DNA of 64,000 nucleotides. Source: Rufibacter roseus (lineage in GTDB: Bacteria > Bacteroidota > Bacteroidia > Cytophagales > Hymenobacteraceae). Within the stretch, counting starts at the first letter, position 1; every line of letters begins with the position of its first letter. Made by a program: the position numbers and the translations under genes. The stretch is taken from contig NZ_LRML01000009.1 in the NCBI RefSeq assembly GCF_001647285.1, positions 124,001-188,000 on the forward strand, read 5' to 3'. Positions 3,195 to 62,887 of the stretch are shown piece by piece. Under the pieces are notes generated by a model. That model saw only the letters and a program-made list of their open reading frames with translations. It had not been told where the DNA came from and ran no database searches.

Positions 3195-3232
3195 GGTTTT
3201 AGGCTGATTTGCTAAAAACGAGCCGGAAACGG
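3195..3232. repeat. Palindromic element copy 1
   Basis: A degenerate copy with arm GGTTTTAGGCTGATTTGC facing arm CCGTTTCCGGCTCGTTTTT (read as reverse complement). It sits in the leader region of ribH, between that start codon and the terminator of the TPR gene. Confidence 0.55.
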
Positions 3233-3253
3233 TTCTACGCAAATTTGCATAAA

Positions 3254-3298
3254 AAAGCGGAGCAGCGGCCTAAATAAATTAGGTTGCTGCTCCGCTTT
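3254..3298 (-). terminator. Terminator of the TPR gene
   Basis: A 20-bp stem with two G-U pairs (3254-3273 with 3279-3298) starts 23 bases beyond the TPR stop. Read on the minus strand, the stem is followed by a run of T, as in an intrinsic terminator. Confidence 0.8.
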
Positions 3299-3320
3299 AC
3301 TTTATTTCTTTGTGCAGGAA

Positions 3321-4025
3321 TTAGTTAGCTAATTCTTCGGCCCGAGCCTTGAATTTTTTAGCGTCGTTCACTTCCTGACTTACAGGGTAGTTCTCAATAA
3401 TACGGCCATACACCTCAGCGGCTTCGGCATTTTTGTTAGCGGTCTCCAGAGCCAAAGCGGCTTTCATGAGGTACTGCGGCGAAAAATAATCGTTGGCTTT
3501 GTGTTCAGCAGCTTTGGTATACAACTCAGCGGCCTCTTCGGCTTTTCCTAGCTCTAACTGGGCATCACCTTGAAGGCTATAAGCACGGGCCTGAAGCAAC
3601 AAATCATCAGATTTGAACTCCTCTAAATAATTCAGAGCCTCTTGGAACTGACCTTGCTTTAACAAGGCTATACCAGCGTAGAAGTTTGCAAGGTTACCTG
3701 CTTTGGTGCTACCGTACTCATCGGCAATTTTCTTGAAGCCGGCATACTGGCCGTCACCATTGATGGCTTTATTCAACGAGTCAGCCTCTAAATAATATTC
3801 TGCCTGAAACATAGCAGCCAGCGCTTCTTCGTTCTGATTCTGGCGGTTCTGGTAAAACAGGAAACCACCCACCACAGCGGCAGCTATGGCCACAAAAATC
3901 CCGATCAGCAAATTCTTGTGACGGGTCACAAAATCCTCCGACCCTCCTACAAGGCGATCAGCCAGGGCATCTGGGTTTTCCACTAGCTCTAAGTCGCTCT
4001 CTTGCTTCATTGTTTTAATTGACAT
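3321..4025 (-). CDS. Membrane-anchored tetratricopeptide-repeat protein
   Basis: The 234-residue product has a short cytoplasmic N-terminal part, one transmembrane helix (NLLIGIFVAIAAAVVGGFLFY, about residues 38-58) and a soluble domain of TPR-like helix pairs, for example AGIALLKQGQFQEALNYLEEF, ARAYSLQGDAQLELGKAEEAAELYTKAAEH and MKAALALETANKNAEAAEVYGRII. The plan of one N-terminal anchor plus periplasmic TPRs resembles the YfgM/AncA type linked to secretion quality control. This is analogy only. A gene of this kind commonly precedes ribH in Bacteroidetes. The ATG at 4025 is used, and a second Met five codons later (4010) is equally possible. Confidence 0.75.
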   Translation of the reverse strand: MSIKTMKQESDLELVENPDALADRLVGGSEDFVTRHKNLLIGIFVAIAAAVVGGFLFYQNRQNQNEEALAAMFQAEYYLEADSLNKAINGDGQYAGFKKIADEYGSTKAGNLANFYAGIALLKQGQFQEALNYLEEFKSDDLLLQARAYSLQGDAQLELGKAEEAAELYTKAAEHKANDYFSPQYLMKAALALETANKNAEAAEVYGRIIENYPVSQEVNDAKKFKARAEELAN

Positions 4026-4119
4026 CAGTAAGTATAAAAATAATATTAAATGCTGCTACACAAAGCCTTGCCCGCTGAACCCCAAATATCTCTGGTGCGT
4101 TCCCCGCCTGGCAGCTTTT

Positions 4120-5151
4120 TTAGACCATCACGTACGGATAGTCTTTTTCTACATATATATCTGTGTATAATTCTTCAGGCTCTGGGTAAGGAGAGTTTTC
4201 TGCAAATTCCACTGATTCCTGCACCTGCGCCTTGATTTTAGCATCAATTTCTTCCAGTTCCTGCTCAGTGGCGAATTTATTCTCCAGAATGGTGTAACGC
4301 ACGCTCTCAATAGGATCTTGGTTACGGTAGTTCTCCAGTTCCTCTTTGGTGCGGTACTTAGCCGGGTCAGACATAGAGTGGCCTTTGTAACGGTAAGTTC
4401 TGAACTCTAGGAAGGTTGGACCTTCACCGGCGCGGGCACGCTCAGCGGCACGGGCTACAGCATCATGCACATCTTCGCAACGCATGGCGTTTACCGGCTC
4501 AGATGGCATGTCATAGCTCAAACCTAATTTATACAGATCAGTTACGTTTGAGGTGCGTTGTACAGAAGTACCCATGGCGTAACCGTTGTTCTCTACTACA
4601 AAGATTACCGGCAGTTTCCATAGCATGGCCATGTTGAAAGCCTCATGTAAAGCACCTTGGCGTACGGCACCGTCGCCCATGTAAGTAATACACAGGTTAC
4701 CGGTTTTGTTGTATTTCTCGGCAAACGCCAAACCAGCACCTAGCGGCACCTGAGCGCCTACAATACCGTGGCCGCCCACAAAGTTTACTTCTTTATCAAA
4801 AATGTGCATGGAGCCACCTTTGCCTTTTGAGCAACCGGTAGCCTTGGCAAAAAGCTCGGCCATAACCGCGTTTGGCGAAGTGCCTAGCCCCAGTGGGTGT
4901 GCGTGGTCACGGTAAGCGGTAATCCATTTATCGTCTTTGGTAAGGGCGGTGATAGCTCCAGCCGCACATGCTTCTTGCCCAATATATAAGTGGCAAAAAC
5001 CTTTTATTTTCTGCTGACCATATAACTGGCCTGCTTTTTCCTCAAATTTGCGCATGAGTTGCATCATCTCATACCAGCGCAGGTAGGTCTCTTTTGAAAA
5101 TGAAGGGGCACCTTTTACCTTTGTCTTCTTCGCTGCTTTCGCGTCCGCCAT
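4120..5151 (-). CDS. pdhA: Pyruvate dehydrogenase E1 component, alpha subunit
   Basis: PdhA is the thiamine-diphosphate-binding half of the E1 heterotetramer that decarboxylates pyruvate and passes the acetyl group to E2. The 343-residue protein shows the TPP site from GDGAVRQGALHEAFNMA through VVENNGYAMGT (about 158-197), the AYRDHAHPL and KGKGGSMHIF segments of the substrate channel, and YRYKGHSMSDP, the phosphorylation-loop equivalent. A short Lys/Ala-rich head (about 15 residues) precedes the domain. The beta subunit is not in the window. TACGTTTG at 5183-5190, about 30 bases upstream, is a plausible -7 box. It is transcribed divergently from recF. Confidence 0.96.
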   Translation of the reverse strand: MADAKAAKKTKVKGAPSFSKETYLRWYEMMQLMRKFEEKAGQLYGQQKIKGFCHLYIGQEACAAGAITALTKDDKWITAYRDHAHPLGLGTSPNAVMAELFAKATGCSKGKGGSMHIFDKEVNFVGGHGIVGAQVPLGAGLAFAEKYNKTGNLCITYMGDGAVRQGALHEAFNMAMLWKLPVIFVVENNGYAMGTSVQRTSNVTDLYKLGLSYDMPSEPVNAMRCEDVHDAVARAAERARAGEGPTFLEFRTYRYKGHSMSDPAKYRTKEELENYRNQDPIESVRYTILENKFATEQELEEIDAKIKAQVQESVEFAENSPYPEPEELYTDIYVEKDYPYVMV

Positions 5152-5182
5152 ATCTTATGTCTGTTGTTCGTAAGGATTAAAT

Positions 5183-5190
5183 CAAACGTA
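5183..5190 (-). promoter_or_regulatory. Candidate -7 box for pdhA
   Basis: On the minus strand this reads TACGTTTG, matching the Bacteroidetes TAnnTTTG -7 consensus. A start about 7 bases downstream would give a leader of about 25 bases. No clear -33 TTTG is seen. Confidence 0.35.
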
Positions 5191-5230
5191 CGGAATTTCA
5201 AATATTGCCATTCAACTGCTGAATTAGCGA

Positions 5231-5238
5231 TAGTTTTG
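5231..5238 (+). promoter_or_regulatory. Candidate -7 box for recF
   Basis: TAGTTTTG matches TAnnTTTG, with a possible TTG at 5205-5207 as the upstream element. The predicted leader of recF would be about 45 bases. Confidence 0.35.
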
Positions 5239-5291
5239 TTCCGTAAGGCATTATAACATGCGAAATTAAGTAAAAATCTGGAAACAAGTTC

Positions 5292-6407: not shown

Positions 6408-6427
6408 CAGGGAACAGTTATCAGTAA

Positions 6428-6539
6428 ACAGTGAGCAGTTAGCAATTTATAGTTATCAGCAAACAAGTTCATCTGCACGTTTTCTGCAGGGAAACTATTG
6501 ATTTAATAACATTAAGGATAACTGATAACTGCTCACTGT
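6428..6539. repeat. Inverted repeat with AACTGATAAC-like short repeats
   Basis: After the recF stop, a stretch rich in CAGTTATCAG/AACTGATAAC words contains a perfect 14-bp inverted pair (6428-6441 with 6526-6539, arm ACAGTGAGCAGTTA) enclosing about 84 bases. Related words recur at about 15143-15200. I see no gene in 6408-6704. The rest is AT-rich and leads into the DUF721 gene. Confidence 0.5.
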
Positions 6540-6704
6540 TACAGGCCGTAAACAAAAAAAGGTGAATTGTGCGTATCTTGGGGATAAGTTGCGTGGATAA
6601 ATTCATTTCCCTAAACCCAATTTTACCCATTTTAAAACGCCTAATTTAGCGCTGTAGAATTTGTATTCACTCATTCGCACAGTCATTCCTTCACTCATTA
6701 CACT

Positions 6705-7031
6705 ATGTCCCTGCGTCCGCTAAACCCCAGAAGTCCGTTCATGCGCAAAGCTGATACCATCAGCTTGAAAGACAGCATTGAGTCTATGCTGAAGGCGTAT
6801 AAATTGAATGGGAAGCTGAGTGAGGTGCAACTGGTGAGTTCTTGGGAAAAGATTATGGGCAAGGCCATTGCGCTTAAGACCCAGGAGGTGTTTGTGCGCA
6901 ACCGTAAATTGTTCGTGCGCCTTACTTCGGCCCCGCTGAAGCACGAGCTGAACATGGCCAAAGCCAAGGTGGTGTCTCTTATTAACTCTGAGATGGGCGA
7001 ACAGGTAATTGACGAGGTTGTTTTTCTGTAG
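6705..7031 (+). CDS. DUF721 family protein (DciA-like)
   Basis: A small basic protein of 108 residues. After a short head, ISLKDSIESMLKAYKLNGKLSEVQLVSSWEKIMGKAIA matches the start of DUF721 (the DciA fold), followed by the KTQEVFVRNRKLFVRLTSAPLKHELNMAKAKVV core and a C terminus VIDEVVFL. In other bacteria DciA recruits and loads the replicative helicase DnaB in place of DnaC. Bacteroidetes copies are short, domain-only versions, and pairing with recF fits a replication or repair role. A palindromic element begins five bases after its stop. Confidence 0.8.
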   Translation: MSLRPLNPRSPFMRKADTISLKDSIESMLKAYKLNGKLSEVQLVSSWEKIMGKAIALKTQEVFVRNRKLFVRLTSAPLKHELNMAKAKVVSLINSEMGEQVIDEVVFL

Positions 7032-7035
7032 ATTT

Positions 7036-7074
7036 CTGTTTCAGCGCCATTTTCTGGAAAACAGGTCAAAAACA
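7036..7074. repeat. Palindromic element copy 2
   Basis: Arms CTGTTTCAGCGCC and, from the other side, TGTTTTTGACCTGTTTTCC. It lies five bases after the DUF721 stop codon. The left arm is degenerate. Confidence 0.55.
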
Positions 7075-7140
7075 TTCACACAATTTATAGGTGACAGCTG
7101 CACTTGCCTTTTTTTGTAACTACCAGTTACTAAAAATATT

Positions 7141-7203: not shown

Positions 7204-7369
7204 GTTTGGCAAGCGTAATTGATGCCTTCTGCTGTTTGAAGTCTTCCGTAGGGTGACTTCAAACCGAAAATGAATCAGTAGGAACTCCGTTCCGGCCAAG
7301 TGGCAAAATCTTACCTATGGAATAACTGCCAATGTCTGGAGCTGCTTTTGCTCCGTGGAGGCAGGAAGT

Positions 7370-10922: not shown

Positions 10923-10962
10923 CTGTTTTTGGCCTACTTTTAGAAAAACAGCGTAAAAACAG
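10923..10962. repeat. Palindromic element copy 3, abutting a start codon
   Basis: Left arm CTGTTTTTGGCCTACTTTT, right arm (reverse complement) CTGTTTTTACGCTGTTTTT. It ends two bases before the ATG of the thioesterase gene, which makes it one of the few copies in a leader rather than after a stop. Confidence 0.8.
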
Positions 10963-11541: not shown

Positions 11542-11579
11542 TTGTTTTCAGGCTGAATTCTCAAAAATAGGCCTAAAAG
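11542..11579. repeat. Palindromic element copy 4
   Basis: Arms TTGTTTTCAGGCTGAATTC and, reversed, CTTTTAGGCCTATTTTTG. It lies directly after the thioesterase stop and seven bases from the convergent cardiolipin synthase stop, so it could end both transcripts. Confidence 0.75.
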
Positions 11580-14310: not shown

Positions 14311-14356
14311 ATGGCGTTTTTAGGCTAATTTTCAAAAATCAGCTTAAAAACGCCAT
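14311..14356. repeat. Palindromic element copy 5
   Basis: One of the most complete copies: outer arms ATGGCGTTTTTA and TTAAAAACGCCAT pair perfectly, with inner AGGCTAATTTT against AAGCTGATTTT. It lies between the ABC ATPase stop (minus) and the start of the YdjM-type gene. Confidence 0.88.
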
Positions 14357-16865: not shown

Positions 16866-16904
16866 CATTTTCAGGCTGTTTTTGAAAAATCAGACAGAAA
16901 ACAG
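16866..16904. repeat. Palindromic element copy 6
   Basis: Arms CATTTTCAGGCTGTTTTTG and, reversed, CTGTTTTCTGTCTGATTTTTC. It lies in the spacer upstream of the DUF5687 gene, immediately before the first copy of the 45-bp repeat. Confidence 0.7.
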
Positions 16905-18511: not shown

Positions 18512-18550
18512 CCTTTTTTGACCTGTTTTTCAAAAACTAAGCTTAAAACG
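18512..18550. repeat. Palindromic element copy 7
   Basis: Arms CCTTTTTTGACCTGTTTTTC and, reversed, CGTTTTAAGCTTAGTTTTTG. It lies upstream of the sigma-factor gene, seven bases before copy C of the 45-bp repeat. This is the same neighbour pairing as at 16866-16963. Confidence 0.7.
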
Positions 18551-18884: not shown

Positions 18885-18924
18885 CTGTTTTAAGGCTGTT
18901 TTTGCAAAAAGAGGGCAAAAACGG
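18885..18924. repeat. Palindromic element copy 8
   Basis: Arms CTGTTTTAAGGCTGTTTTTGC and, reversed, CCGTTTTTGCCCTCTTTTTGC. It lies in the glutamate dehydrogenase 3' region between the stop codon and the terminator hairpin. A perfect DnaA box follows at 18935-18943. Confidence 0.8.
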
Positions 18925-20488: not shown

Positions 20489-20528
20489 ATGTTTTTGCTC
20501 TGTTTTTTAAAATTTAGCTTAAAAACAG
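20489..20528. repeat. Palindromic element copy 9
   Basis: Arms ATGTTTTTGCTCTGTTTTTT and, reversed, CTGTTTTTAAGCTAAATTTT. It lies in the divergent promoter region between glutamate dehydrogenase and the M28 peptidase, so this copy cannot be a 3' end for either. Confidence 0.7.
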
Positions 20529-22007: not shown

Positions 22008-22049
22008 CTCGTTTTTGAGCTAGTTTTTCAAAAATAGCTTTAAAATAGC
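22008..22049. repeat. Palindromic element copy 10
   Basis: Arms CTCGTTTTTGAGCTAGTTTTTC and, reversed, GCTATTTTAAAGCTATTTTTG. It lies two bases after the M28 stop and runs directly into the GC-rich terminator, sharing its last bases with that stem. Confidence 0.75.
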
Positions 22050-23560: not shown

Positions 23561-23600
23561 GCGTTTTAGGTCAGTTTTTGCAAAAATAGACCTAAAACAG
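23561..23600. repeat. Palindromic element copy 11
   Basis: Arms GCGTTTTAGGTCAGTTTTTGC and, reversed, CTGTTTTAGGTCTATTTTTGC. It lies 29 bases after the HTTM stop. A perfect DnaA box (23532-23540) lies between. The remainder up to 23830 is AT-rich leader for the patatin gene. Confidence 0.85.
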
Positions 23601-26343: not shown

Positions 26344-26381
26344 ATTATAAGGCTATTTTTCAAAAATCAGCTTCAAAACAG
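26344..26381. repeat. Palindromic element copy 12
   Basis: Right arm (reversed) CTGTTTTGAAGCTGATTTTTG is good. The left arm ATTATAAGGCTATTTTTC has lost its outer GTTT. It lies between the convergent patatin gene and the lipoprotein gene, 29 bases from the latter stop. Confidence 0.65.
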
Positions 26382-27578: not shown

Positions 27579-27617
27579 CGGTTTTCGGCATGTTTTAGGA
27601 AAAAAGGCCAAAAATAG
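27579..27617. repeat. Palindromic element copy 13
   Basis: Arms CGGTTTTCGGCATGTTTTAGG and, reversed, CTATTTTTGGCCTTTTTTCC. It lies five bases after the DUF2807 stop, ahead of the terminator. Confidence 0.75.
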
Positions 27618-31877: not shown

Positions 31878-31916
31878 CGTTTTCAGCCTGTTTTCTCTAA
31901 AATAGGCTGAAAACAG
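31878..31916. repeat. Palindromic element copy 14
   Basis: Arms CCGTTTTCAGCCTGTTTTCTC and, reversed, CTGTTTTCAGCCTATTTTAG. It lies 16 bases after the DUF4249 stop and ahead of the terminator. Both arms carry C at the variable position after GTTTT. Confidence 0.88.
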
Positions 31917-33643: not shown

Positions 33644-33995
33644 TTTCTAAAGACTTCTCAGTGAAAGTATCATAAAGGCGAAAAGCTAAAGTACCTGAAT
33701 CTTAAACTTCTGCCCTTGTTGGTGTTGTCACCAACAAGTAGTTGAGTTATTCATTTAGAAGAAAGCGCATTACAGTTCATTCTTCTGACAAAAACCTGTT
33801 ATGTAAGTAGTCAACTGAACTAGTCTAGTTGGTAAGAACACGAACAAGGGCGAAAGGGCGAAAGTATATCAACAGGGAAGAAAGGGATAATTTAAAATGT
33901 GTTTTAGCCCTTTTTTTCAGAAAACAATCCGAAAACAAGATTACATATCCACAATTTTACATCTCCATACTTTCAAATCTGCTCATGCTCAAATT
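33644..33995. other. Gene-free spacer with a stem-loop
   Basis: The only structure besides a palindromic element (33900-33938) is a 10-bp stem CTTGTTGGTG (33715-33724) with its reverse complement at 33729-33738 and a 4-base loop. No T run follows on either strand, so it is not an obvious terminator. It lies about 70 bases upstream of the small membrane-protein gene. Confidence 0.35.
33900..33938. repeat. Palindromic element copy 15
   Basis: Arms GTGTTTTAGCCCTTTTTTTC and, reversed, TTGTTTTCGGATTGTTTTCTG. It lies 57 bases past the polyprenyl synthase stop (minus strand). Confidence 0.65.
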
Positions 33996-35095: not shown

Positions 35096-35137
35096 AGCGT
35101 TTTCGTGCACTTTTCTAAAAAAGAGCCCGAAAACGCT
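35096..35137. repeat. Palindromic element copy 16
   Basis: Outer arms AGCGTTTTCG and CGAAAACGCT pair perfectly. Inner parts are TGCACTTTTC and, reversed, GGCTCTTTTTTAG. It lies 22 bases after the RNase R stop. An extra half-arm (TTGTTTTAGGC) is at about 35072. Confidence 0.82.
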
Positions 35138-35158: not shown

Positions 35159-37495
35159 TTAAAGTACATCTATCAGCTCCAAATCAATGGTACGCTCTAG
35201 CACATTGGTGGCTTTTACTTCCACCATTACCTCATCACCGAAAGAAATAATACGCTTGTTATTTCTGCCTATAATGCGATAATTGGCTGAGTCTAGCTCG
35301 TAGAAATCGTCTTGCAAATCTGCCAGACGAATCATGCCTTCGCACTTGTTCTCCACAATCTCCACGTACATACCCCATTCTGTCAGGCCAGACACCATTC
35401 CTTTGAACTGATGCCCAAGGAACTGGTTAATGTACTCTACCTGCTTAAATTTGATAGAAGCACGTTCGGCATCGGCGGCACGTTTCTCCATGTCTGAAGA
35501 ATGCTGGCTCCGCTCTTCATACTCTTCTGCGTCAACGGTGTAGTTGCCGTGGTTATACTGATCAATAAGCCGATGCGCCATCATGTCTGGGTACCGGCGA
35601 ATAGGTGACGTGAAGTGCGAATAATGCGCAAACGCCAGCCCGAAATGTCCTTCAGGCTCAGTGCTATACTTAGCTTTGGCCATGGTTCTGATAGCCAGGC
35701 TCTGCAGCAGCCCTTGCTCTGGCTTACCTTCGGTGGAAGAGGCCAGCTTGTTCAGCTCTTTTGAGATGTCTCTGCCTTCCTCTAAATCTACCTGATAGCC
35801 AAACTTACGCGCGAACAAAGAGAAGTTCACCAACTTGTCAGGATCTGGGGCGCCGTGCGTACGGTACACCATGGTCAGCTTGTTCTTGCCCTTCTTCATC
35901 TTGTACACATGCTCCGCCACGTATTTATTGGCCAACAGCATAAATTCTTCAATAAGCTTGTGCGCGTCTTTTCGCTCTTTCACGTACAGTGACAGCGGTT
36001 TGCCGTTTTCGTCTAGCTTAAACTTCACCTCAATGGTTTCAAAGTTCACGGCTCCGTTTTTGAAGCGTTTGTCTTTGAATTTTTTGGCCAGCTCGTTCAG
36101 CTTCAGAATTTCTTCTTTAAAGTCGCCCTCACCAGTTTCTATTACCTGCTGCGCATCTTCATAGGCAAACCGGCGGTCTGAGTGAATAATGGTGCGGCCA
36201 ATCCAATACTCATGAATTTTGGCGTTCTCATCAATCTCAAATACTACTGAGAAGGTTAGCTTGTCTTCATTGGGTCTTAACGAGCACAAGCCGTTTGACA
36301 ACCGCTCAGGCAGCATGGGAATGGTACGGTCTACCAGGTACACCGAGGTGGCGCGGCGGTAGGCCTCTTTCTCCAGTCTTGTTCCTGGCTGTACATAATG
36401 TGTAACATCAGCAATGTGCACACCAATTTCCCAGTTACCGTTTTCCAGCTGACGCACGCTCAGAGCATCGTCAAAGTCTTTTGCATCGGCGGGGTCAATG
36501 GTGAACGTGGTCACGTCACGGTAGTCGCGGCGCTTGGCAATTTCTTCTTTGGTAATTGCCTCTGGAATAGCATTCGCCTCTTTTTCCACCGACTCCGGAA
36601 ACTCAAATGGCAAACCAAACTCCGCCATAATAGCATGAATTTCGGTATTGTGCTCACCAGCTGGACCGAACACCCTGATCACCTCACCCATTGGGTTTCG
36701 CTGCGGATCTTCCGGCCATTCTGTGATGCGTACCAGCACTTTGTCTCCGTTTTGGGCATCGGCTAAGCCGCGCTCGCCCACAAACACATCAAAGTACATG
36801 CGCTTCATATCAGGCACAATAAACCCGAAGCCTTTCGACATCTCCAGACGACCTACCACTTCTTCGCGCTCGCGGTGGATAACTTCTACCACTTCGCCCT
36901 CTGGACGCTCATTGGCGCGGCGGCTCTTTCTCAGTTGCACCCGCACCGTGTCACCAGACATGGCAAACATGAGTTTTTCCACAGGCACGCGCACGTCTTG
37001 CTCGCTGTCTTCACTGATCACATAGGCATGGCGCCCGTTGGCTAAATCTACTTTACCCACAATGGTAGGACCACCTCTGCGCGAAACGGTAGCGCCTCTT
37101 CTATCAGAATCACGGCGGCTACCGCGTTCACTGGTGCGCTCTCCTCTAGTGGAGGTACGTTCGGTGCCTCTATAGTCAGGGTTGAAGGTGTAGGTATCTT
37201 CCTGCAGGTGCACCAATTCTCCGTTCTTGCGCATGTTTTTCAACAGGGCAAATACTTCTTCGCGGCCCTCTTTGCTGTTAATGCCTAAGCGGCGGTGCAG
37301 TTGGCGGTAAGTAAATACTTTGTCTGGGTTTTGGCTGAAAATATTCAGCAGTACCTCTCTTGATACTTCGCCCAAGTTCTGGCCACGACTTCCACCGCTT
37401 TTGTTACGACGCGGTGCGCCTTTGTCTTTTCTGGTATTGCTAGACCGAGGGGCAGAATCTTTTCCTGCGCCCGGCCCTTTTCTTTCTCTTCTCAT
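35159..37495 (-). CDS. rnr: Ribonuclease R
   Basis: A processive 3'-5' exoribonuclease of 778 residues that can unwind structured RNA. It has an Arg/Lys-rich disordered head (1-40), a winged-helix (EVLLNIFSQNPDKVFTYRQLHRRLGINSKEG), a second Arg/Ser-rich insert (RGTERTSTRGERTSERGSRR, about 109-128), cold-shock OB domains, the RNB catalytic core with TFTIDPADAKDFDDALS (about 331-347, active-site Asp residues) and HYSHFTSPIRRYPDMMAHRL (about 627-646), and a C-terminal S1 domain (GMVSGLTEWGMYVEIVENKCEGMIRL). The two basic low-complexity inserts are unusual and resemble the head of the rluB-like gene. Confidence 0.96.
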   Translation of the reverse strand: MRRERKGPGAGKDSAPRSSNTRKDKGAPRRNKSGGSRGQNLGEVSREVLLNIFSQNPDKVFTYRQLHRRLGINSKEGREEVFALLKNMRKNGELVHLQEDTYTFNPDYRGTERTSTRGERTSERGSRRDSDRRGATVSRRGGPTIVGKVDLANGRHAYVISEDSEQDVRVPVEKLMFAMSGDTVRVQLRKSRRANERPEGEVVEVIHREREEVVGRLEMSKGFGFIVPDMKRMYFDVFVGERGLADAQNGDKVLVRITEWPEDPQRNPMGEVIRVFGPAGEHNTEIHAIMAEFGLPFEFPESVEKEANAIPEAITKEEIAKRRDYRDVTTFTIDPADAKDFDDALSVRQLENGNWEIGVHIADVTHYVQPGTRLEKEAYRRATSVYLVDRTIPMLPERLSNGLCSLRPNEDKLTFSVVFEIDENAKIHEYWIGRTIIHSDRRFAYEDAQQVIETGEGDFKEEILKLNELAKKFKDKRFKNGAVNFETIEVKFKLDENGKPLSLYVKERKDAHKLIEEFMLLANKYVAEHVYKMKKGKNKLTMVYRTHGAPDPDKLVNFSLFARKFGYQVDLEEGRDISKELNKLASSTEGKPEQGLLQSLAIRTMAKAKYSTEPEGHFGLAFAHYSHFTSPIRRYPDMMAHRLIDQYNHGNYTVDAEEYEERSQHSSDMEKRAADAERASIKFKQVEYINQFLGHQFKGMVSGLTEWGMYVEIVENKCEGMIRLADLQDDFYELDSANYRIIGRNNKRIISFGDEVMVEVKATNVLERTIDLELIDVL

Positions 37496-37614: not shown

Positions 37615-37653
37615 CTGTTTTAGACCTGTTTTGGGAAAAATAAGGTAAAACGC
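37615..37653. repeat. Palindromic element copy 17
   Basis: Arms CTGTTTTAGACCTGTTTTGGG and, reversed, GCGTTTTACCTTATTTTTCCC. It lies 30 bases after the double ABC ATPase stop, in the region upstream of rnr. Confidence 0.75.
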
Positions 37654-37682: not shown

Positions 37683-39512
37683 CTATTCGTCTATACTTGC
37701 TTTATACGCTTTTCGTTTCTGTTGCGCCGTTAAAATATCTTCCAGCTCACCCGTGGGTACAGCTTCCAGCAGTGCTTTTGTATACACTTGCCGGGGCTGC
37801 GAGAAAATTTGCTCCGCTGGGCCTTGCTCCACAATATGCCCCGCTTGCATGACTAGCAAACGGTCAGCCATAAACTTGGCTACTGCCAAATCGTGGGTTA
37901 TGAACAGAATGGTAAGGTTAAATTCGCGCTTGAGGCGGTTGAGCAAATTCAGTACCTGTGCTTGTACAGATACATCAAGTGCAGAAACTACTTCATCGCA
38001 GATGATACACGTGGGTTCCAGCACCAGCGCTCTGGCAATGCAGATGCGTTGTAATTGACCGCCGGAAAATTCTTGGGGATAACGGTGAAAATGTTCGGGA
38101 AGCAAACCTACTGTTTCCAGTAGCTCCAATGCGCGCTGTTTACGCTCCCGTTTAGAAATAAACAGCCGGTGCACCTGCATAGGTTCCATTATGGCCTCAC
38201 CTATTCTCATGTATGGATTAAGCGAAGCATAAGGGTCTTGGAACACCATCTGGAAATCTTTCCGCCACTTCCGCAAGTCTTCTGGTTCAAGTTTAGTCCA
38301 GTCAGCGCCGTTGAAAAGTATTTGACCGGCAGTAGGCTCTATTAACCTTAATAAGGTGCGCCCTAAAGTTGTTTTTCCACAGCCAGATTCACCCACAATG
38401 GCTACAGTTTCACCAGGGAAAACATCAAAAGAAACACCTTTTACAGCCTGTATGTACTCTTTTTCTTTAAAAATAAAGCCTCGGCTTATGGTGTAATCCA
38501 CGTATAAATCTTTCACCTGGAGCAGCGGTTGCGGGAGAAGCGTCTCTGGCTGTTGATTCTGGGAAAAGAGTACTTCATTTGTTGTCTTTTCCACAGCTAA
38601 ACCAATTAAATGAGGTACTTTAACCGGCTTCTCGCGCACCTGCCCCAGGTCATCAACTTCCATAAAATCTGATACCACTGGCAGCACTTGAACCTTTTTT
38701 TTAAGGCTAGGCCGGCAAGAAAGTAAGGCTTTTGTATATGGATGTTTCGGATTTGTGAAAATATCTACAACAGTACCCTCCTCCACCATTTTGCCTTGGT
38801 ACATAACCAAAATACGGTCGGCTATTTCGGAAACTACGCCCAAATCATGTGAGATGAACAGCATGGCCATTTCCTGCTCCAGCCTAAGTTGGTTCAGTAG
38901 CTTTAGTATTTCTGCTTGTACCGTCACGTCTAAAGCCGTGGTGGGTTCATCTGCTATAAGTAAAGAAGGTTGACAAGCCATGGCCATGGCAATCATGACC
39001 CGTTGCTTCTGCCCCCCAGACAATTGATGTGGATAACTATGGAAAATCTTCTCGGGTCTTGGCAGCTTTACCTTGTCCAATAGGGCAACAGTACGTGCAT
39101 ATGCCTCTTCTTTGGAAATTGGGAGGTGGATTAACAAAGCCTCTGCCACTTGTTTCCCACAACTGATGACTGGGTTCAGAGAAGACTGCGGCTCTTGAAA
39201 AATAATGGAGATTTCGTTCCCCCTAATTTTCTGCATCTGCTTTTCAGGTAGACTCAGCACATCTACCGAACCAAACTGCGGAGAATTGAAAAGGGCAGTT
39301 CCGCCAGTAATTTGTCCGGGCGGAGTTTGGATAAGCTGCATGAGCGACAAACCCGTAACTGATTTTCCAGAACCAGACTCACCTACAATGGCCAGTGTCT
39401 CACCTTTTTGAAGCTGAAAAGAAATAGTATCTACTGCTCTTATCAAACCCTGCTGAGTAGCAAACTCTATTTGCAGCTGGTTTACTTGTAGAAGCGGTGT
39501 AGACAAAGGCAT
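37683..39512 (-). CDS. Peptide ABC transporter ATP-binding protein with two fused ATPase domains
   Basis: A 609-residue protein of the DppD-DppF/YejF fusion type. Domain 1 (about 1-265): Walker [34 protein letters not shown] and [20 protein letters not shown], with the oligopeptide-type C-terminal tail ([10 protein letters not shown]). Domain 2 (about 330-600): [38 protein letters not shown] and [20 protein letters not shown]. It would drive uptake of di- or oligopeptides, but no permease or binding-protein gene is nearby. Such orphan ATPase fusions are common in Bacteroidetes. Confidence 0.92.
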
Positions 39513-39558: not shown

Positions 39559-39599
39559 TCTGTTTTGAGGCTACTTTTCAGAAAACAGGCTAAAACAGA
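39559..39599. repeat. Palindromic element copy 18
   Basis: Arms TCTGTTTTGAGGCTACTTTTC and, reversed, TCTGTTTTAGCCTGTTTTCTG. It lies in the divergent gap upstream of the double ABC ATPase gene, so it is not at a 3' end here. Confidence 0.8.
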
Positions 39600-40400: not shown

Positions 40401-40460
40401 TAGAAGCATAAAAGCGAGAGGGCTGCCAACATTGGCAGCCCTCTCGCTTTTATGCTTCTA
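40401..40460. terminator. 29-bp perfect palindrome ending lspA and the barrel gene
   Basis: Positions 40401-40429 pair perfectly with 40432-40460. The core GGGCTGCC/GGCAGCCC lies between T-rich flanks, so it should terminate both convergent transcripts. The stem is so long that its right half includes the last codons and stop of lspA (TAA at 40450-40452), meaning the 3' end of lspA has an inverted copy on the other side. Confidence 0.85.
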
Positions 40461-41095: not shown

Positions 41096-41143
41096 CCCGC
41101 TGTTTTTGGCTTGTTTTTCAAAAAACAGACCAAAAACAGCGGG
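41096..41143. repeat. Palindromic element copy 19
   Basis: The longest clean copy: CCCGCTGTTTTTGG and CCAAAAACAGCGGG pair perfectly and enclose CTTGTTTTTC and AAAAAACAGA. It lies between ileS and lspA on the minus strand, so it is probably within or at the end of the ileS transcript. Confidence 0.9.
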
Positions 41144-44853: not shown

Positions 44854-44894
44854 CCGTTTTAGCATAGTTTTTTGAAAAACAGGCTGAAAACAGG
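44854..44894. repeat. Palindromic element copy 20
   Basis: Arms CCGTTTTAGCATAGTTTTTTG and, reversed, CCTGTTTTCAGCCTGTTTTTC. It lies in the divergent ileS-epimerase spacer. Confidence 0.75.
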
Positions 44895-44999: not shown

Positions 45000-45039
45000 G
45001 CGTTTTCAGCCTGTTTTTCAAAAAACATCTCAAAAACAG
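45000..45039. repeat. Palindromic element copy 21
   Basis: Arms GCGTTTTCAGCCTGTTTTTC and, reversed, CTGTTTTTGAGATGTTTTTTG. It is the second copy in the same divergent spacer, 105 bases from copy 20 and in the same orientation. Confidence 0.75.
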
Positions 45040-46270: not shown

Positions 46271-46310
46271 GCGTTTTGGACCTTCGTTCTGAAAAGCAGA
46301 TCCAAAACGC
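46271..46310. repeat. Palindromic element copy 22
   Basis: Arms GCGTTTTGGACCTTCGTTCTG and, reversed, GCGTTTTGGATCTGCTTTTC. It begins 18 bases after the epimerase stop. Both arms have G at the variable position, unlike other copies. Confidence 0.85.
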
Positions 46311-46332: not shown

Positions 46333-46606
46333 GCAGATACTCCCCATTAGAAGGGCGAAGGGGGATGTTTACACAAAAGTATCACGCATTGCTGATCGTA
46401 GGGACAGGTCGCGACCTGTCCGGAGACGCTGGCCCTAGATGTAGGGCTTACTATGGAAAAGAAAATCACTCCGGCAGGCGCAGAACCTTTACATGAATGG
46501 AATTTGTAGGGGCATCCGCAAAGGACAGGTCGCGACCTGTCCCTACAGGGAACGCCATAATTGGCAAGTGTAAACATCCCCTACCCCCTTAAAAGGGGGA
46601 ATCTGC
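46333..46606. mobile_element. MITE-like element with about 40-bp terminal inverted repeats
   Basis: The left end (46333-46374) and right end (46568-46606) are inverted copies of one sequence (GCAGAT at the outside, then a GGGG-rich tract, GATGTTTACAC inside). The 190 bases between carry two identical 20-bp palindromes, GGACAGGTCGCGACCTGTCC, at 46402-46421 and 46523-46542, the first preceded and the second followed by GTAGG/CCTAC. No coding frame of note lies within. Sequence 46548-46606 recurs at 7141-7203. This looks like a small non-autonomous transposon or the decayed ends of one. No transposase is nearby. Confidence 0.6.
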
Positions 46607-46718: not shown

Positions 46719-46757
46719 TGTTTTAGGCTTATTTTCAGAAAAACAGACCTAAAACAG
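46719..46757. repeat. Palindromic element copy 23
   Basis: Arms TTGTTTTAGGCTTATTTTCAG and, reversed, CTGTTTTAGGTCTGTTTTTCTG. It lies four bases after the glycyl-tRNA synthetase stop and before its terminator. Confidence 0.85.
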
Positions 46758-46761: not shown

Positions 46762-48258
46762 TTAAAGTTTCTCGAAAATACGTTTGAAGCTCACGGCGTC
46801 ACCAATGTACTGGCGAAGCTCCGAAATGTGCATGCGCTTCTGCTCTCGGCTGTCGCGCTCGCGTACGGTCACGGTGTCGTTCTCAAGGGTCTCGTAATCA
46901 ACGGCTATACAGAACGGCGTACCGATCAGGTCTTGGCGGGTGTAGCGTTTTCCTATGGCGTCGCGCTCTTCATAGATCACGTTGAAATCGAACTTCAGAT
47001 CATCAAAGATTTGCTGGGCTTTCTCTGGCAAACTATCTTTGCGCACCAGCGGGAAAACAGCGGCTTTTACTGGGGCAATAGCTGGATGGAACTTCAGGAA
47101 GGTGCGGGTTTTAGTGTTCTCGCCTTCCGTGATTTCCTCTTCCTGGTACGCATTGCACAGCGTCATCAGGAACAGACGGTCAGCGCCTACCGATGTTTCC
47201 ACTACGTATGGCACGTAGTTTCCGTATGGCTTACCGTCTTCGTTCAGGTCGTTGTCAAAGTACTGCTGCTTTTTACGGCTAAGTTCCTGGTGCTGGGTCA
47301 GGTCAAAATCGGTACGGGAGTGAATACCTTCTACTTCTTTAAAACCGAACGGGAACTCAAACTCAATATCAACGGCGGCGTTAGCGTAGTGAGCCAACTT
47401 TTCGTGGTCGTGGTAGCGAAGCTTTTCAGAAGGAACGCCCAAAGCCTCATGCCAACGGCGGCGAACAGTTCTCCAATGCTGGTACCATTCCATTTCGGTG
47501 CCAGGGCGAACAAAGAACTGCATTTCCATCTGCTCAAACTCGCGCATTCTAAAAATGAACTGACGAGCCACAATCTCATTTCGGAAAGCTTTGCCAATTT
47601 GGGCAATCCCAAAAGGCACTTTCATACGACCCGATTTCTGCACGTTCAGGAAGTTCACAAAAATTCCCTGGGCAGTCTCGGGGCGGAGGTAAATAGTGCT
47701 AGAGTCTTCGGCCACGGAACCTACCTGTGTGGAGAACATCAGGTTGAACTGACGGACTTCTGTCCAGTTACAGGTGCCTGAAATTGGGCACTTTATGTTT
47801 TCTGAGATAATTAATCGCTGCACGCCTTTCAGATCTTCGGCCTCCAGCAAACGCGCCATTTGATTCAGCAGGTTTTGCTTTTTATCCACATCACCGGCTT
47901 TCTCGTATTCGGCAGCTTTTTCCTCAATCAATACATCAGCGCGATAGCGCTTTTTAGAATCGAGGTTATCAATCATGGGATCATTAAATGAATCCACATG
48001 ACCCGATGCTTTCCAGGTGAGCGGGTGCATGAATATGGAAGCGTCAATGCCCACTACATTTTGGTGCAGTTGCGTCATGGCTTTCCACCACAGGTTCTTG
48101 AGGTTATTTTTTAGCTCTACTCCGTTCTGCCCGTAGTCATACACGGCCTGCAGACCGTCATAAATCTCGCTGGAAGGAAAAACAAATCCGTACTCCTTGG
48201 CATGCGAGATAATATCTTTTAACTGCGCGTTCTCAGTCTGTTTCTCTTGTTTGCTCAT
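46762..48258 (-). CDS. glyQS: Glycyl-tRNA synthetase, dimeric (alpha2) type
   Basis: A class II synthetase of 498 residues that charges tRNA-Gly. The N-terminal motif DIISHAKEYGFVFPSSEIYDGLQAVYDYGQNGVELKNNLK is characteristic. Class II motifs follow: FNLMFSTQVGSVAEDSSTIYLRPETAQGIFVNF (motif 2 region, about 180-212), IAQIGKAFRNEIVARQFIFRMREFEQMEMQFFV, and GADRLFLMTLCNAY (motif 3). The anticodon-binding domain ends the protein (FPLVRKDSLPEKAQQIFDDLKF to the GTPFCIAVDYETLENDTVTVRERDS block). The large plus-strand frame opposite it is a shadow. A -7 box close to the start suggests a very short leader. Confidence 0.97.
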   Translation of the reverse strand: MSKQEKQTENAQLKDIISHAKEYGFVFPSSEIYDGLQAVYDYGQNGVELKNNLKNLWWKAMTQLHQNVVGIDASIFMHPLTWKASGHVDSFNDPMIDNLDSKKRYRADVLIEEKAAEYEKAGDVDKKQNLLNQMARLLEAEDLKGVQRLIISENIKCPISGTCNWTEVRQFNLMFSTQVGSVAEDSSTIYLRPETAQGIFVNFLNVQKSGRMKVPFGIAQIGKAFRNEIVARQFIFRMREFEQMEMQFFVRPGTEMEWYQHWRTVRRRWHEALGVPSEKLRYHDHEKLAHYANAAVDIEFEFPFGFKEVEGIHSRTDFDLTQHQELSRKKQQYFDNDLNEDGKPYGNYVPYVVETSVGADRLFLMTLCNAYQEEEITEGENTKTRTFLKFHPAIAPVKAAVFPLVRKDSLPEKAQQIFDDLKFDFNVIYEERDAIGKRYTRQDLIGTPFCIAVDYETLENDTVTVRERDSREQKRMHISELRQYIGDAVSFKRIFEKL

Positions 48259-51453: not shown

Positions 51454-51497
51454 AAAAAGAAAGAGCCCGCTGTATTTGCAGCGGGCTCTTTCTTTTT
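51454..51497 (+). terminator. Terminator of the PiT-like gene
   Basis: A 19-bp perfect stem (51454-51472 with 51479-51497), core GAGCCCGCTG, loop TATTTG, T run at the 3' side. Confidence 0.88.
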
Positions 51498-51535
51498 TAA
51501 GGTTTTTAAATAAAAACTCTTAAAACAACAGGTTG

Positions 51536-51603: not shown

Positions 51604-52113
51604 TTAGCTGCCTGCTGGCCACAGCACCTCCAGATTATCATCCATGTGTACGCCAAAATTGACAGCTAACAGCTTCCCTTCTTCAAAATAAAGGTCAATC
51701 ATTTCTTTTTCGTAAGAAAGGCAGGTAACGTTGTTTTCAATCTTCTCTTTTTCTACCGACTGAACTCCATTGGCTTTGAACAAGTCTTCTACTTCCTGCA
51801 GGCTTAATTCAAAGATCTTCTTTCCCCACAGGGTTACGTTAGGGTTTGCCGTTTCTATGCAGCTCAAGCGGTAATCATCTTCTTTGTCAAAGTAAAAAGA
51901 GAAGCCGGTGTCCCAGTAGTTGAACGCCTTGTGCTCAAACTCATCTTCCTCGCTAGACTCTTCAATTTCCTCAGGCTCTCCCATGATGTCTTCTACCTGC
52001 TCCATGCTTAACCCAAAGGTCAAGTCCCCTATCCCGCGGCCGAGCTGTATTTCATTATCAAATTGCTGTTTTTCTAATTCCATGGTAATTGCTCTTTCGT
52101 CTGTTTTTGACAT
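51604..52113 (-). CDS. Conserved hypothetical acidic protein
   Basis: The start is placed at the ATG at 52113 (MSKTDERAITMELEKQQFDN). A TTG seven codons earlier is the longer option, and the Met at MELEKQ is a shorter one. The 169-residue product is very acidic and cytosolic. GRGIGDLTFGLSMEQVEDIMGEPEEIEE resembles the first half of SmpA/OmlA-type or SMI1-type repeats, and the GKKIFELSLQEVEDLFKANGVQ segment near 105-125 looks like a second copy of the same unit. I recognise no function. It is monocistronic and downstream of the AT-rich DnaA-box cluster. Confidence 0.6.
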   Translation of the reverse strand: MSKTDERAITMELEKQQFDNEIQLGRGIGDLTFGLSMEQVEDIMGEPEEIEESSEEDEFEHKAFNYWDTGFSFYFDKEDDYRLSCIETANPNVTLWGKKIFELSLQEVEDLFKANGVQSVEKEKIENNVTCLSYEKEMIDLYFEEGKLLAVNFGVHMDDNLEVLWPAGS

Positions 52114-52139
52114 GATTTTTATAAAACTAGTCAAAAATA

Positions 52140-57109: not shown

Positions 57110-57178
57110 TGTGTGGATTACTATTATGTTTCACGTGAACATTGTTGATAACTGAGGTAAAACTATAGAAAGCGGTGT

Positions 57179-61000: not shown

Positions 61001-61376
61001 GATCATTCTCTTGGGCGGCATTGCGAAGTTGGAGCAGGTTCAGGAGCCTATCTTGTATTTCGGGGAAGTAGTGGGATACTTGTTGAGCCGCCTGTTCGTC
61101 TGAGAGAAGTTTCTTAAGATTGGCCAAGGCCATGAGCGGGGTCCAGAGCCAACGGATAACGGCAAATGCGCTGAGGCCTAAAAAAGAGAAGAGCAGAAAC
61201 GCTCTGACCTCTGGCTGAAAGTAAAAGAAATACTCCAGAAGCGTCATGAGCAGGAACGAAGACAACAGCAAACCTGTAGCCAGCAACGTTCCTTTGAAAA
61301 GCAGATTCAGGTAGAACTTGCGTTTAAACGCCTGAAGCTGCTGTAATACAGTTTGTAAAGATCCGGCAGCCCGCAT
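58044..61376 (-). CDS. DUF4175 family large coiled-coil membrane protein
   Basis: The 1110-residue protein has two or three N-terminal transmembrane helices (about 22-65 with LNLLFKGTLLATGLLLSSFLLMTLLEY, and around 155-172 with YLALPLVLVLVLAFIYPALFV). A beta-rich periplasmic-like region follows (about 180-490). The next roughly 350 residues are a very long Gln/Glu/Lys coiled coil (SQQVESQLKSSLSKAEELQKSLEQNEE and similar, to about 840), then a Gly/Lys-rich hinge (KKKGKGKGKGQSPG, near 945) and another coiled coil. DUF4175 proteins head the ybeY-mnmG operon in this phylum. Function is unknown, with envelope stress or cell-division scaffolding only a guess. Confidence 0.82.
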   Translation of the reverse strand: MRAAGSLQTVLQQLQAFKRKFYLNLLFKGTLLATGLLLSSFLLMTLLEYFFYFQPEVRAFLLFSFLGLSAFAVIRWLWTPLMALANLKKLLSDEQAAQQVSHYFPEIQDRLLNLLQLRNAAQENDLIAASVEQRSEELSGYQFPERIKITQNNKSYFKYLALPLVLVLVLAFIYPALFVQGTRRIIDFKTHYAPEAPFQFVVQNKSLRAFKGENFKLEVAIEGRSIPEEVAVVINGREIPLRKGKGQTYVHEFQQVQESVDFQFTGAGFYSKPNTLTVVPRPVLRQLKAELNYPKYLRKPNEILDNTGDLTIPEGTKVTWRFAADDADSIWLQFQEPAQKLKAQAQGEEFVLNKTFMQSQRFSMHLRNRYSENKEKISHQVTVIPDRHPEITLEQFRDSVLYSYLVVGGTISDDYGFSRLALHYRVVKDNQPAPSFKAMAMPYNPTIPTQSYFYQFNLKPLQLKQGEKLEYFVQVTDNDQVPQPKSARTSTFTFKFPDLNEAQKSIEESSQQVESQLKSSLSKAEELQKSLEQNEEKTKVKKELSWQDKKALQELAEKKKALQEELNTLQKMNEQLNQQQERFSPQNEKLAEKRDQLKKLMDELLDDETKKLYEELEKLLQQKQPDPAKIQPLLDKLNQQEDNLQKELDRLLELFKQLEVEQKLENAMQKLDELAKKQEDLAQKTEGQKQPDKNLQQNLQEEQKKLQEEFKKTQEQLNEAEKMNEQLEHPESLPDTDQMEEQIEQDQQDAQENLDKGKNQKASQSQKSAAQKMKQMSEQMQSMSMESDMQQMQENLDHLRDILENLVTLSFDQEKLMKDFRNVHQSDPRFIALAQQQLKLSDDAKIIEDSLLSLAKRVAQIQSFVTREVGAMEEEMKRSSESIKDRNLGKTGTHQQLAMTSMNNLALMLSDVQQQMQAAMMAAQQSGPGKKKGKGKGKGQSPGALGQMQQQLNEQIQQLKQSGQSGKALSESLARLAAQQEMLRNAMKELAPPSTQPGGKEGGENLSNLRKLMEQTETDLVNKRLTEQTIMRQKEILTRLLQAEKAANERDLDEKREANTAKELPARIPPSLQKYQAQQKQQTETLRQNLPALTPYYKKQVDAYFKKIGY

Positions 61377-61534
61377 ACTTTTTGTTTAGAATGAGAAAAG
61401 TAGCCCCAAAACAGCCGCGAACAGAATTCTCCTGCTAAGGCTGTTTCACAGTAATCATACGTAATTGATCAGTAGAATATTAACTCTTTTTAAGACAAGT
61501 TTAGTATAAATAAGAACAAAGGAAAGAAAAGAGC

Positions 61535-61576
61535 TGCGTTTTTGGCCTGCTTTTTAGAAAACAGACCAAAAACGAC
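61535..61576. repeat. Palindromic element copy 24
   Basis: Arms TGCGTTTTTGGCCTGCTTTTTAG and, reversed, GTCGTTTTTGGTCTGTTTTC. It lies 76 bases after the xth stop (minus strand) and upstream of the DUF4175 start. It is the first copy seen after a 14.8-kb stretch without any. Confidence 0.85.
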
Positions 61577-61652
61577 AGAAGTTCTTCCAGATTATTGCTG
61601 GTACAGTTGTTCTGTTTAGCTGTGTCTTTAAAACAGGTTGTACAGCTTATCC

Positions 61653-62426
61653 CTACCCTTCTACCGGATGCATCTCCAGCAGAACGGGGCAGTGGTCAGA
61701 ATGTTTAGCCTCTGGCAAAATAGCGGCACGTTTCATCTGAGGCTTCAACTGCTCTGACACCAACAGGTAATCAATACGCCAGCCCAAGTTCTTCTCACGT
61801 ACATTAGCACGGTAGCTCCACCAAGTATATTGGTGCGGCTCAGAGTTGAAGTGGCGGAACGAATCAACAAAGCCATCTTGCAGAAAGCCGCTGAACCAAT
61901 TTCGTTCTTCAGGCAGAAAGCCAGAGCTTTTAGCATTTGATTTCGGATTGTGGATATCTATGGCTTGATGGCAAATATTATAGTCGCCGCAGATAACTAA
62001 ATTAGGCACTGTAGCCTTTAAACCTTGAATATACTGTTGAAAATCGCGGAGCCATTCCATCTTAAACGCCTGCCGCAAATCACCACTAGACCCAGACGGC
62101 ATGTACACGTTCAACACTGAATAGCCTGCATAGTCGGCGCGGATAACTCTGCCTTCTTGGTCGTACTGTTCAATGCCACAGCCAATGCATACGTTCTTTG
62201 GTTCTACCTTAGATAAGATAGCCACGCCGCTGTAGCCTTTCTTTACTGCTGGGTGTAGGTAAACTTTATACCCAAGTTCCTCAAAGGGAGCTTTGTCAAA
62301 CTTAGTTTCGTCAGCCTTTATCTCCTGCAGGCACAGCACGTCTGGATTAGCGGCTCTTACCCAATCTACAAATCCTTTTGAAATGGCGGACCTGATGCCA
62401 TTTACATTATAACTGATGATTTTCAT
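61653..62426 (-). CDS. xth: Exodeoxyribonuclease III / AP endonuclease
   Basis: A 257-residue class II AP endonuclease that cuts 5' of abasic sites and has 3'-5' exonuclease activity. Motifs: KIISYNVNGIRSAI (metal-site Asn), LQEIKADETKFD (metal Glu), NVYMPSGS, VICGDYNICHQAIDIHNPKSN, and KHSDHCPVLLEM with the catalytic His-Asp pair. Length and order are typical. The small 112-residue gene upstream ends three bases before this start, so the two share a transcript. Confidence 0.96.
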   Translation of the reverse strand: MKIISYNVNGIRSAISKGFVDWVRAANPDVLCLQEIKADETKFDKAPFEELGYKVYLHPAVKKGYSGVAILSKVEPKNVCIGCGIEQYDQEGRVIRADYAGYSVLNVYMPSGSSGDLRQAFKMEWLRDFQQYIQGLKATVPNLVICGDYNICHQAIDIHNPKSNAKSSGFLPEERNWFSGFLQDGFVDSFRHFNSEPHQYTWWSYRANVREKNLGWRIDYLLVSEQLKPQMKRAAILPEAKHSDHCPVLLEMHPVEG

Positions 62427-62429
62427 GTA

Positions 62430-62768
62430 CTACAGCTGATCGAAATATTCAACGGCATGCCATTTCAGCATCCGCTCCTGTTCTTTTAAATTACATGCCG
62501 GCAGCGGCTTCACCGATTTCCAGTGCGGCCATCCGTCTTGGTCAGTGCCTTCCAGTTGATAATAACCCGAAAGGCTCAATAGTTTGCAGGTAGCTATGTG
62601 CATCAAATCCTGCTTTTCTTCCTTTGTGAATTCCCGTAGCCCCTGCCCCAATTCCTGAATACCAACTAAGAATAGTATGGCGTTCAAGTCTGGCTTCTTG
62701 CCGAATTTCTGTTTCAGGTCTTGACGCAAAGCTGCCCACCGGACATCAAAGTCTTCCTCGTTCTCCAT
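62430..62768 (-). CDS. Conserved hypothetical small protein
   Basis: A 112-residue soluble protein with alternating acidic and basic stretches (MENEEDFDVRWAALRQDLKQKFGKKPDLNAILFLVGIQELGQG, then FTKEEKQDLMHIATCKLLSLSGYYQLEGTDQDGWPHWKSVKPLP). The pattern GYYQLEGTDQDGWPHW is distinctive and probably conserved, but I recognise no domain. Its stop codon is three bases from the xth start, suggesting operon co-expression. Confidence 0.6.
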   Translation of the reverse strand: MENEEDFDVRWAALRQDLKQKFGKKPDLNAILFLVGIQELGQGLREFTKEEKQDLMHIATCKLLSLSGYYQLEGTDQDGWPHWKSVKPLPACNLKEQERMLKWHAVEYFDQL

Positions 62769-62845
62769 GGGTATTTAAAGAGTGAATAAGTAATGAATTG
62801 AATGAAGGATGTTTCTTTGATCCTTCATCAATTCTTGTTGTAAAG

Positions 62846-62887
62846 GCTGTTTTAGACCTGTTTTAGCGAAAACAAGCCTAAAACAGC
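62846..62887. repeat. Palindromic element copy 25
   Basis: GCTGTTTTAGACCTGTTTTAGC faces, reversed, GCTGTTTTAGGCTTGTTTTCGC, with A in both arms at the variable position. It lies 17 bases after the stop of the carboxymuconolactone decarboxylase-like gene. Confidence 0.88.

Follow-up and report, generated by a model that had tools for sequence, protein, structure and literature searches.

A 36-bp four-box palindrome between the genes of Rufibacter: a candidate site for a genus-specific chromosomal protein

INTRODUCTION

Dispersed palindromes in bacterial chromosomes are usually taken to be either mobile repetitive extragenic palindromes (REPs) or RNA hairpins. Here we describe a 36-bp palindromic element, built of four short boxes, that recurs between genes in a 64-kb stretch of the Rufibacter roseus genome (contig NZ_LRML01000009.1, positions 124,001 to 188,000; the window) and in the other Rufibacter genomes that we searched. 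An initial annotation of the window had noticed an unrecognised family of palindromes, and as far as tested this description holds. The window contains no Rfam match above the gathering score. Among the open-licence papers listed by title and abstract start, none described the element, and that literature held no paper combining Rufibacter, repeat and intergenic. The main text of the RepRanger paper (PMC12306157) mentions neither Rufibacter nor Hymenobacter. Within the literature searched, the four-box site is so far undescribed.

The closest described systems each share part of its outline. REPs and bacterial interspersed mosaic elements (BIMEs), with their REP-associated tyrosine transposases (RAYTs), are likewise short, high-copy, extragenic, palindromic, often located behind genes, and species-specific in consensus. 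REPs of this class are marked at one palindrome end by a GTAG or CGTC tetranucleotide, CGTC-tagged repeats being reported from Bacteroidetes among other phyla (PMC3733652), and the RAYT gene is flanked by two inverted REP elements (PMC2817692). The Rufibacter element, in contrast, has no excess of the tag and no regular RAYT flanking, and it has boxes at a fixed 7-4-7 spacing, a drifting middle, and positions kept genus-wide. The Caulobacter protein GapR, as portrayed in two reports, offers a likeness in its 3'-end location, its A/T-tract contacts, and its dimer-of-dimers or tetramer form (PMC8510090, PMC7498317). GapR follows overtwisted AT-rich DNA, however, whereas the Rufibacter element is a defined 36-bp dyad kept base by base. 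Intrinsic terminators share the hairpin potential and the position behind stop codons, but in the element T-tracts occupy the 5' arm and A-tracts the 3' arm, opposite to the arrangement of terminator flanks; the element also lacks sense-strand asymmetry and coexists with canonical terminators. Finally, the DNA uptake sequences of Neisseriaceae form dialects in which, similarly, the copies of a dispersed signal share their wording in concert within each species (PMC3630211), although the Rufibacter dyad lies almost wholly outside genes and its positions are conserved.

RESULTS AND DISCUSSION

The element and its architecture

The existence of a 36-bp intergenic palindromic element family in Rufibacter was confirmed. 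An arm of the form GTTTTAGGCCTGTTTT, allowing up to 3 mismatches, matched the window 28 times against 1.24 expected from 100 dinucleotide shuffles, and 22 sites set in register showed two arms around a 4-bp spacer, the second arm being frequently degenerate. The element pattern is GTTTT-N7-TTTT-N4-AAAA-N7-AAAAC, with 18 fixed positions in 36 bp and fixed spacing (7-4-7). At up to 3 mismatches to the fixed positions, the window holds 28 elements (reversed control, 2), or one per 2.3 kb. Gene positions throughout this work come from a simple open reading frame (ORF) caller, not from annotation; by this measure 27 of the 28 lie outside genes, against a mean of 0.23 elements in Markov shuffles of the window's intergenic DNA (n = 30). 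The initial annotation had put the family at about 25 copies of 38 to 48 bp, one per 2.6 kb and all outside genes. The family and its two-arm dyad are real, but the copies are somewhat more numerous and denser than it stated, one of them, at 52103, extends across a called gene's start, and what is conserved is a 36-bp core whose middle varies, beyond which outer stem extensions are present in some copies. All seven of its best copies, and its first coordinate at 3195, match this core at 0 to 3 mismatches. The elements are listed below, with mismatches to the 18 fixed positions and, in parentheses, coordinates from the initial annotation.

2583..2618, no strand, element, 1 mismatch
3195..3230, no strand, element, 3 mismatches
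7038..7073, no strand, element, 1 mismatch
10925..10960, no strand, element in divergent region, 1 mismatch
11544..11579, no strand, element in convergent region, 3 mismatches
14316..14351, no strand, element (14311-14356), 2 mismatches
16867..16902, no strand, element, 2 mismatches
18514..18549, no strand, element, 2 mismatches
18887..18922, no strand, element, exact
20491..20526, no strand, element, 2 mismatches
22011..22046, no strand, element, 2 mismatches
23563..23598, no strand, element (23561-23600), exact
26344..26379, no strand, element, 3 mismatches
27581..27616, no strand, element, 2 mismatches
31879..31914, no strand, element 17 bp past a stop codon (31878-31916), exact
33901..33936, no strand, element, exact
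35099..35134, no strand, element behind the RNase R-like gene rnr, 35159-37495(-), inside a terminator-like hairpin
37617..37652, no strand, element behind the ATP-binding cassette (ABC) transporter gene, 37683-39512(-)
39562..39597, no strand, element in divergent region, 3 mismatches
41102..41137, no strand, element between ileS and lspA (41096-41143), exact
44856..44891, no strand, element upstream of ileS, exact
45002..45037, no strand, element in the same divergent region upstream of ileS, exact
46273..46308, no strand, element (46271-46310), 3 mismatches
46720..46755, no strand, element 6 bp past the stop of a class II tRNA-synthetase gene, 46762-48258(-) (46719-46757), exact
51491..51526, no strand, weak match overlapping the end of a canonical terminator, possibly chance, 3 mismatches
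52103..52138, no strand, element overlapping the start of a called gene, 2 mismatches
61538..61573, no strand, element, 1 mismatch
62849..62884, no strand, element (62846-62887), exact

The symmetrised consensus over the R. roseus genome reads cTGTTTT-n-GG-c-CTG-TTTT-t, with GTTTT boxes at positions 1-5 and 12-16 and AAAAC boxes at 21-25 and 32-36, the inner ones varying as (G/A)TTTT and AAAA(C/T). Each arm consists of two direct box repeats 11 bp apart, about one helical turn, and the arms are mirrored across 4 bp. In 400 kb of R. roseus at 0 or 1 mismatch, the 7-4-7 spacing yielded 76 copies and six of the seven other spacings 0 or 1; the seventh, 7-3, yielded 27 matches, 26 of which were 7-4-7 sites read shifted. 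An unbiased scan of every dyad 5-mer (total lengths 16 to 63, 80 kb per genome) ranked GTTTT@25 and GTTTT@36 first and second in R. roseus and in the relative G012; GTTTT@36 came top in G051, and in G042 @36 and @25 came second and third after TGTTT@38. Five other genera of the family, each represented by 80 kb of a single genome, yielded nothing alike in the scan, and the element occurred 0 or 1 times in each sample.

Conserved boxes and drifting middles

The evolutionary evidence splits the element into two layers, boxes that are kept at orthologous places genus-deep and a filling that drifts or is homogenised. The order of ileS, lspA, the ABC-transporter gene, and rnr is the same in 15 relatives, and the elements among these genes recur at the same positions in all 16 species, at up to 3 mismatches behind rnr, up to 4 behind the ABC gene, and up to 4 between ileS and lspA (15 species at up to 3). 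The positions of the elements upstream of the divergent ileS are kept in most species. Across orthologous intergenic regions of two blocks, a relative has an element in 109 of the 138 cases where R. roseus has one and in 7 of the 64 where it does not, and the shared positions span species with 80-90% IleS identity. Among the database matches listed for IleS, the nearest named record was that of Rufibacter ruber, at 81%. Between-species identity was 0.914 in the boxes (1692 cells) compared with 0.752 in the middle, 0.747 in the spacer, and 0.778 in the flanks, as computed from 94 alignments over 13 ordered species pairs that were conditioned on one species and required a BLAST alignment across the element. 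The boxes also exceeded the T/A runs just outside the elements (0.939 versus 0.868, 8 ordered pairs). The species in both the orthology and the identity counts are related and the pairs partly reciprocal, so that cells are not independent. The same box constraint with drifting middles holds in G042, G054, and G027.

At the ABC site, aligned in 14 of the 16 species with registers picked by best box match, arm pairing was 58.4% versus 61.5% in shuffles, with the boxes retained. One alignment (A1) took in all 16 species, a second (A2) left out G027 and G054, which were off register, and a third (A3) left out R. roseus and G057 (off register or poor); the register script favours boxes, so box invariance in A1 to A3 is partly by choice, and the comparison of identity between species is fairer. 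Because boxes are conserved, middles drift, and the ABC arms are unpaired yet keep their boxes, the conserved core is probably a duplex-DNA site, with pairing that appears to be optional and kept only at some copies. The boxes, on this comparison of sequences, very probably serve a conserved function.

The element shows no strand preference relative to transcription. When 122 tandem-region copies were oriented by transcription, the columns were nearly mirror-symmetric, with 126 G-T versus 111 A-C mismatches over all arm pairs and 98 versus 96 in the middle. Strand-symmetric boxes that are constrained and set at a fixed helical spacing, as found here, are what would be expected of an architectural protein's site in duplex DNA.

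Copies favour the 3' ends of genes. In 400 kb of R. roseus, 101 of 109 copies lay outside genes, at 2.90 per kb of convergent, 1.72 of tandem, and 0.79 of divergent intergenic DNA; the corresponding densities were 2.13, 1.80, and 0.72 in G042 and 3.27, 0.68, and 0.50 in G057. Within tandem regions (R. roseus and window together), 59 of 78 copies were closer to the upstream stop, at a median of 56 bp past it.

Copy number and taxonomic range

The R. roseus draft genome (5.12 Mb) has 374 exact copies and none of the reversed control, and from a count of 137 elements over 464 kb, against 3 for the reversed control, we extrapolate a genome-wide total of about 1,500, degenerate copies included. For G012, 25 samples of 20 kb averaged 8 elements each, or about 1,900 per genome. 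Density was even around the G012 chromosome (5 to 11 elements per 20 kb across the samples, two of which overlap by 3 kb), and on this ground a mark of the axis from origin to terminus was rejected. Exact copies were present in all 16 Rufibacter genomes searched, with 10 to 820 in each, and 134 other genomes drawn from the family had 0 or 1 each. An order-wide draw of 241 genomes included 4 from Rufibacter; among the 237 others, 25 of them also in the family draw, 7 had 1 to 4 matches (11 in total), and the reversed control had 13 in 10 genomes. In the draws made, the element is thus genus-specific, and the phylum-wide signal that the initial annotation had considered was rejected, given its near-absence outside Rufibacter. 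One genome from another family of the order, G252, has four exact matches whose centres and middles are alike; these may belong to another repeat family.

Species dialects

The wording of the arms differs between species at the same places, with GTTTAG..CTAAAC in G048, GTTTTCGGGCTCATTTC in G051, and GTTTTTGGCC in G022. Over 15 loci and 96 elements, arm similarity within species was 0.659, versus 0.624 (standard deviation, 0.006) when species labels were permuted within loci. We also counted identical arms shared between different elements against a column-shuffled expectation. They were in excess in G051 (126.5 versus 28.6), G048 (14.2 versus 2.3), G012 (28.6 versus 12.9), R. roseus (29.1 versus 16.2), G022 (13.4 versus 8.0), and G060 (7.5 versus 4.5), and hardly so in G017 (3.8 versus 3.2); the samples tested from G042, G057, G006, G032, and G063 had none or almost none. 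Among 98 R. roseus copies with no more than 2 mismatches, 12 had perfect middles; multiplying the per-position chances predicts about 0.7. Because identical arms exceed the column shuffles, we infer that in some species arms have been copied to arms and copies to copies, in place.

A putative architectural protein

We regard it as an even call whether the element serves an architectural or boundary protein, specific to the genus, as its site at the ends of transcription units. Such a protein would read a 36-bp duplex-DNA site with four boxes, whose geometry would suit either two-headed subunits acting as a dimer or a dimer of dimers, and would bind about 1,500 to 2,000 places in the chromosome, mostly behind genes. 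There it could act as an architectural or boundary factor, whether as a roadblock, a supercoil barrier, or a topoisomerase recruiter. Among the readings offered in the initial annotation, a nucleoid-binding signal fits best. If a protein does read the boxes, Rufibacter would possess an architectural system of its own, genus-specific and with sites following a large proportion of its genes, and the species dialects would allow a direct test of how a DNA-binding protein co-evolves with over 1,000 sites. The copying would be a REP-like overlay in some species, from arm to arm giving perfect palindromes and from copy to copy giving species dialects at orthologous sites. More tentatively, a sequence-specific chromosome protein of Rufibacter's own may mark a sizeable share of transcription-unit ends while protein and sites changed their wording together in each species, in place, the perfect palindromes arising through copying between arms and between copies.

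A number of observations weigh against such a protein. The binder is putative, its stoichiometry and its role at the sites being ones that we infer. The excess of identical arms points to a copying process, for which a plain binding site would have no need. Arms at the same locus in different species are nearly as similar (0.652) as arms of the same species, so descent by locus is also visible. The placement is uneven in its support: in the window, where convergent regions reach 4.94 elements per kb, the divergent density (2.08) equals the tandem one (2.03), and in G012 the convergent density is 0.94 (8 elements), below tandem (2.23) and divergent (1.50) regions, so the convergent preference is not universal. 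At the convergent lspA site, only G022, G017, G060, and, weakly, G063 have an element. Some copies look selected as hairpins. In R. roseus, positions 6, 7, and 9 covary beyond the consensus; at two of the three orthologous sites counted, behind rnr and at ileS, covariation across the whole hairpin is strong, with a score that 0 of 500 shuffles attain; and in the rnr element G-T exceeds A-C mismatches by 33 to 9.

A selfish repeat as a possible alternative

A possible but rather unlikely alternative is a selfish REP-like repeat, in which a RAYT or other hairpin-processing transposase spreads the palindromes, which settle behind genes where they do least damage, the dialects being successive waves. 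The abundance and extragenic placement (374 exact copies; 101 of 109 outside genes in 400 kb) are those of REPs, as are the perfect palindromes and species dialects; the identical arms of G051 and G048, the lineage-specific presence at some sites, and the occurrence of Y1_Tnp genes in 15 of the 16 Rufibacter genomes all suit this explanation. It accounts poorly, however, for positions common to species as far apart as 80-90% IleS identity and for constrained boxes beside drifting middles, a pattern that extends to G042, G054, and G027, whose samples lack shared arms. The likeness to REPs or to enterobacterial repetitive intergenic consensus (ERIC) repeats that the initial annotation proposed therefore holds in outline (abundance, extragenic location, dyad), but the tag that defines REPs and the RAYT flanking fail. 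No GTAG or CGTC column exists in the consensus, which begins (C)YGTTTT, and copy by copy these tetranucleotides, counted from 8 bp beyond an element end to 2 bp within it, occur in 16 of 137 (12%), with no excess over the 15% at random places. Elements lie within 500 bp on both sides of 5 of 25 Y1_Tnp loci, compared with 14 of 107 genes of like length; the loci comprise five of the six R. roseus matches and 20 from relatives, with the Y1_Tnp gene chosen by an HxH rule (another ORF is possible in L234 and L236). Copy number does not track Y1_Tnp number: G017 lacks any Y1_Tnp match yet carries 256 exact copies. RAYT mobilisation as a general explanation was rejected for want of regular flanking and in view of G017. 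A check for the target-site duplication of a miniature inverted-repeat transposable element (MITE), by comparing empty with filled sites, aligned one differing site, where the surrounding DNA was too diverged for the junction to be read.

The genus also contains repeats of a different kind. An inverted pair of GTAG-tagged REP-like repeats, GTAGGGACAGGTCGCGACCTGTCC, lies at 46398-46421 (+) and 46523-46546 (-) in a convergent region of the window, the two repeats being separated by about 100 bp. This GTAG/GTAC-tagged family has 34 strand-wise matches in R. roseus when 2 mismatches are allowed, a figure in which two sites count once for each strand, the near-identity of the repeats being partly by choice of that limit, and is found in 8 of the 16 Rufibacter genomes, often as inverted pairs. 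No transposase for it was found among the Y1_Tnp loci examined, which lack flanking repeats of this family. Y1_Tnp proteins of about 181 amino acids (MSRSYKVRNQ..., MGIKNKIHEG...) come in several kinds in the genus (L224-L243 and L005-L009), without regular flanking repeats.

An RNA hairpin as a less likely alternative

We think it improbable that the element is in general an RNA hairpin at mRNA 3' ends, serving as a terminator, processing, or stability element. The 3'-end bias of the copies and the strong covariation behind ileS and rnr would be expected of one. At rnr in particular, an AAAAGC...GCTTTTT stem encloses the element and a conserved T-tract follows the outer stem, in line with the G-U excess there, and the ileS site leans the same way (G-T 19 versus A-C 11). 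From the strong covariation and the rnr excess, RNA or hairpin selection therefore appears likely at some copies. The imbalance is reversed at the ABC site, however (G-T 14 versus A-C 41), where unpaired arms keep conserved boxes. The 122 oriented copies lack strand asymmetry, and the 110 copies that lie no more than 120 bp from a stop have G-T 194 versus A-C 165. A sense-strand GC-rich stem with a U-tract is absent from the strand-symmetric family consensus, whereas the rnr copy has both. Elements also stand upstream of the divergent ileS, at positions kept in most species.

Canonical terminators were found in 19 of 165 tandem regions, without association with elements (Fisher P = 0.22), and where both are present the terminator precedes the element in 9 of 11 regions. 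In convergent regions, by comparison, 13 of 27 with an element have a terminator versus 1 of 9 without, which favours a hairpin role, as does the replacement of a canonical terminator by a long-stemmed element in G022 and G017. With no sense-strand asymmetry and with terminators occurring separately, the intrinsic terminator was rejected as a general explanation; the initial annotation's suggestion of one survives for single copies such as that behind rnr.

The site of that replacement, at 40401-40460 in the window, lies where lspA and its neighbour converge and consists of a perfect inverted repeat of 29 bp; in most species this place is taken by a canonical terminator, and G022 and G017 have the long-stemmed element instead.

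Other readings and observations

Signals for DNA uptake consist of a short, single unit and are frequent within genes, and a transformation signal of the DNA uptake sequence type, with dialects driven by a receptor, is highly improbable here: the species dialects at fixed positions would suit it, but the unit is the whole 36-bp dyad and 101 of 109 copies in the 400 kb of R. roseus lie outside genes.

Elsewhere in the window, the sequence TGTTTCACGTGAAC at 57127-57140, between two called minus-strand genes, resembles the ParB site parS.

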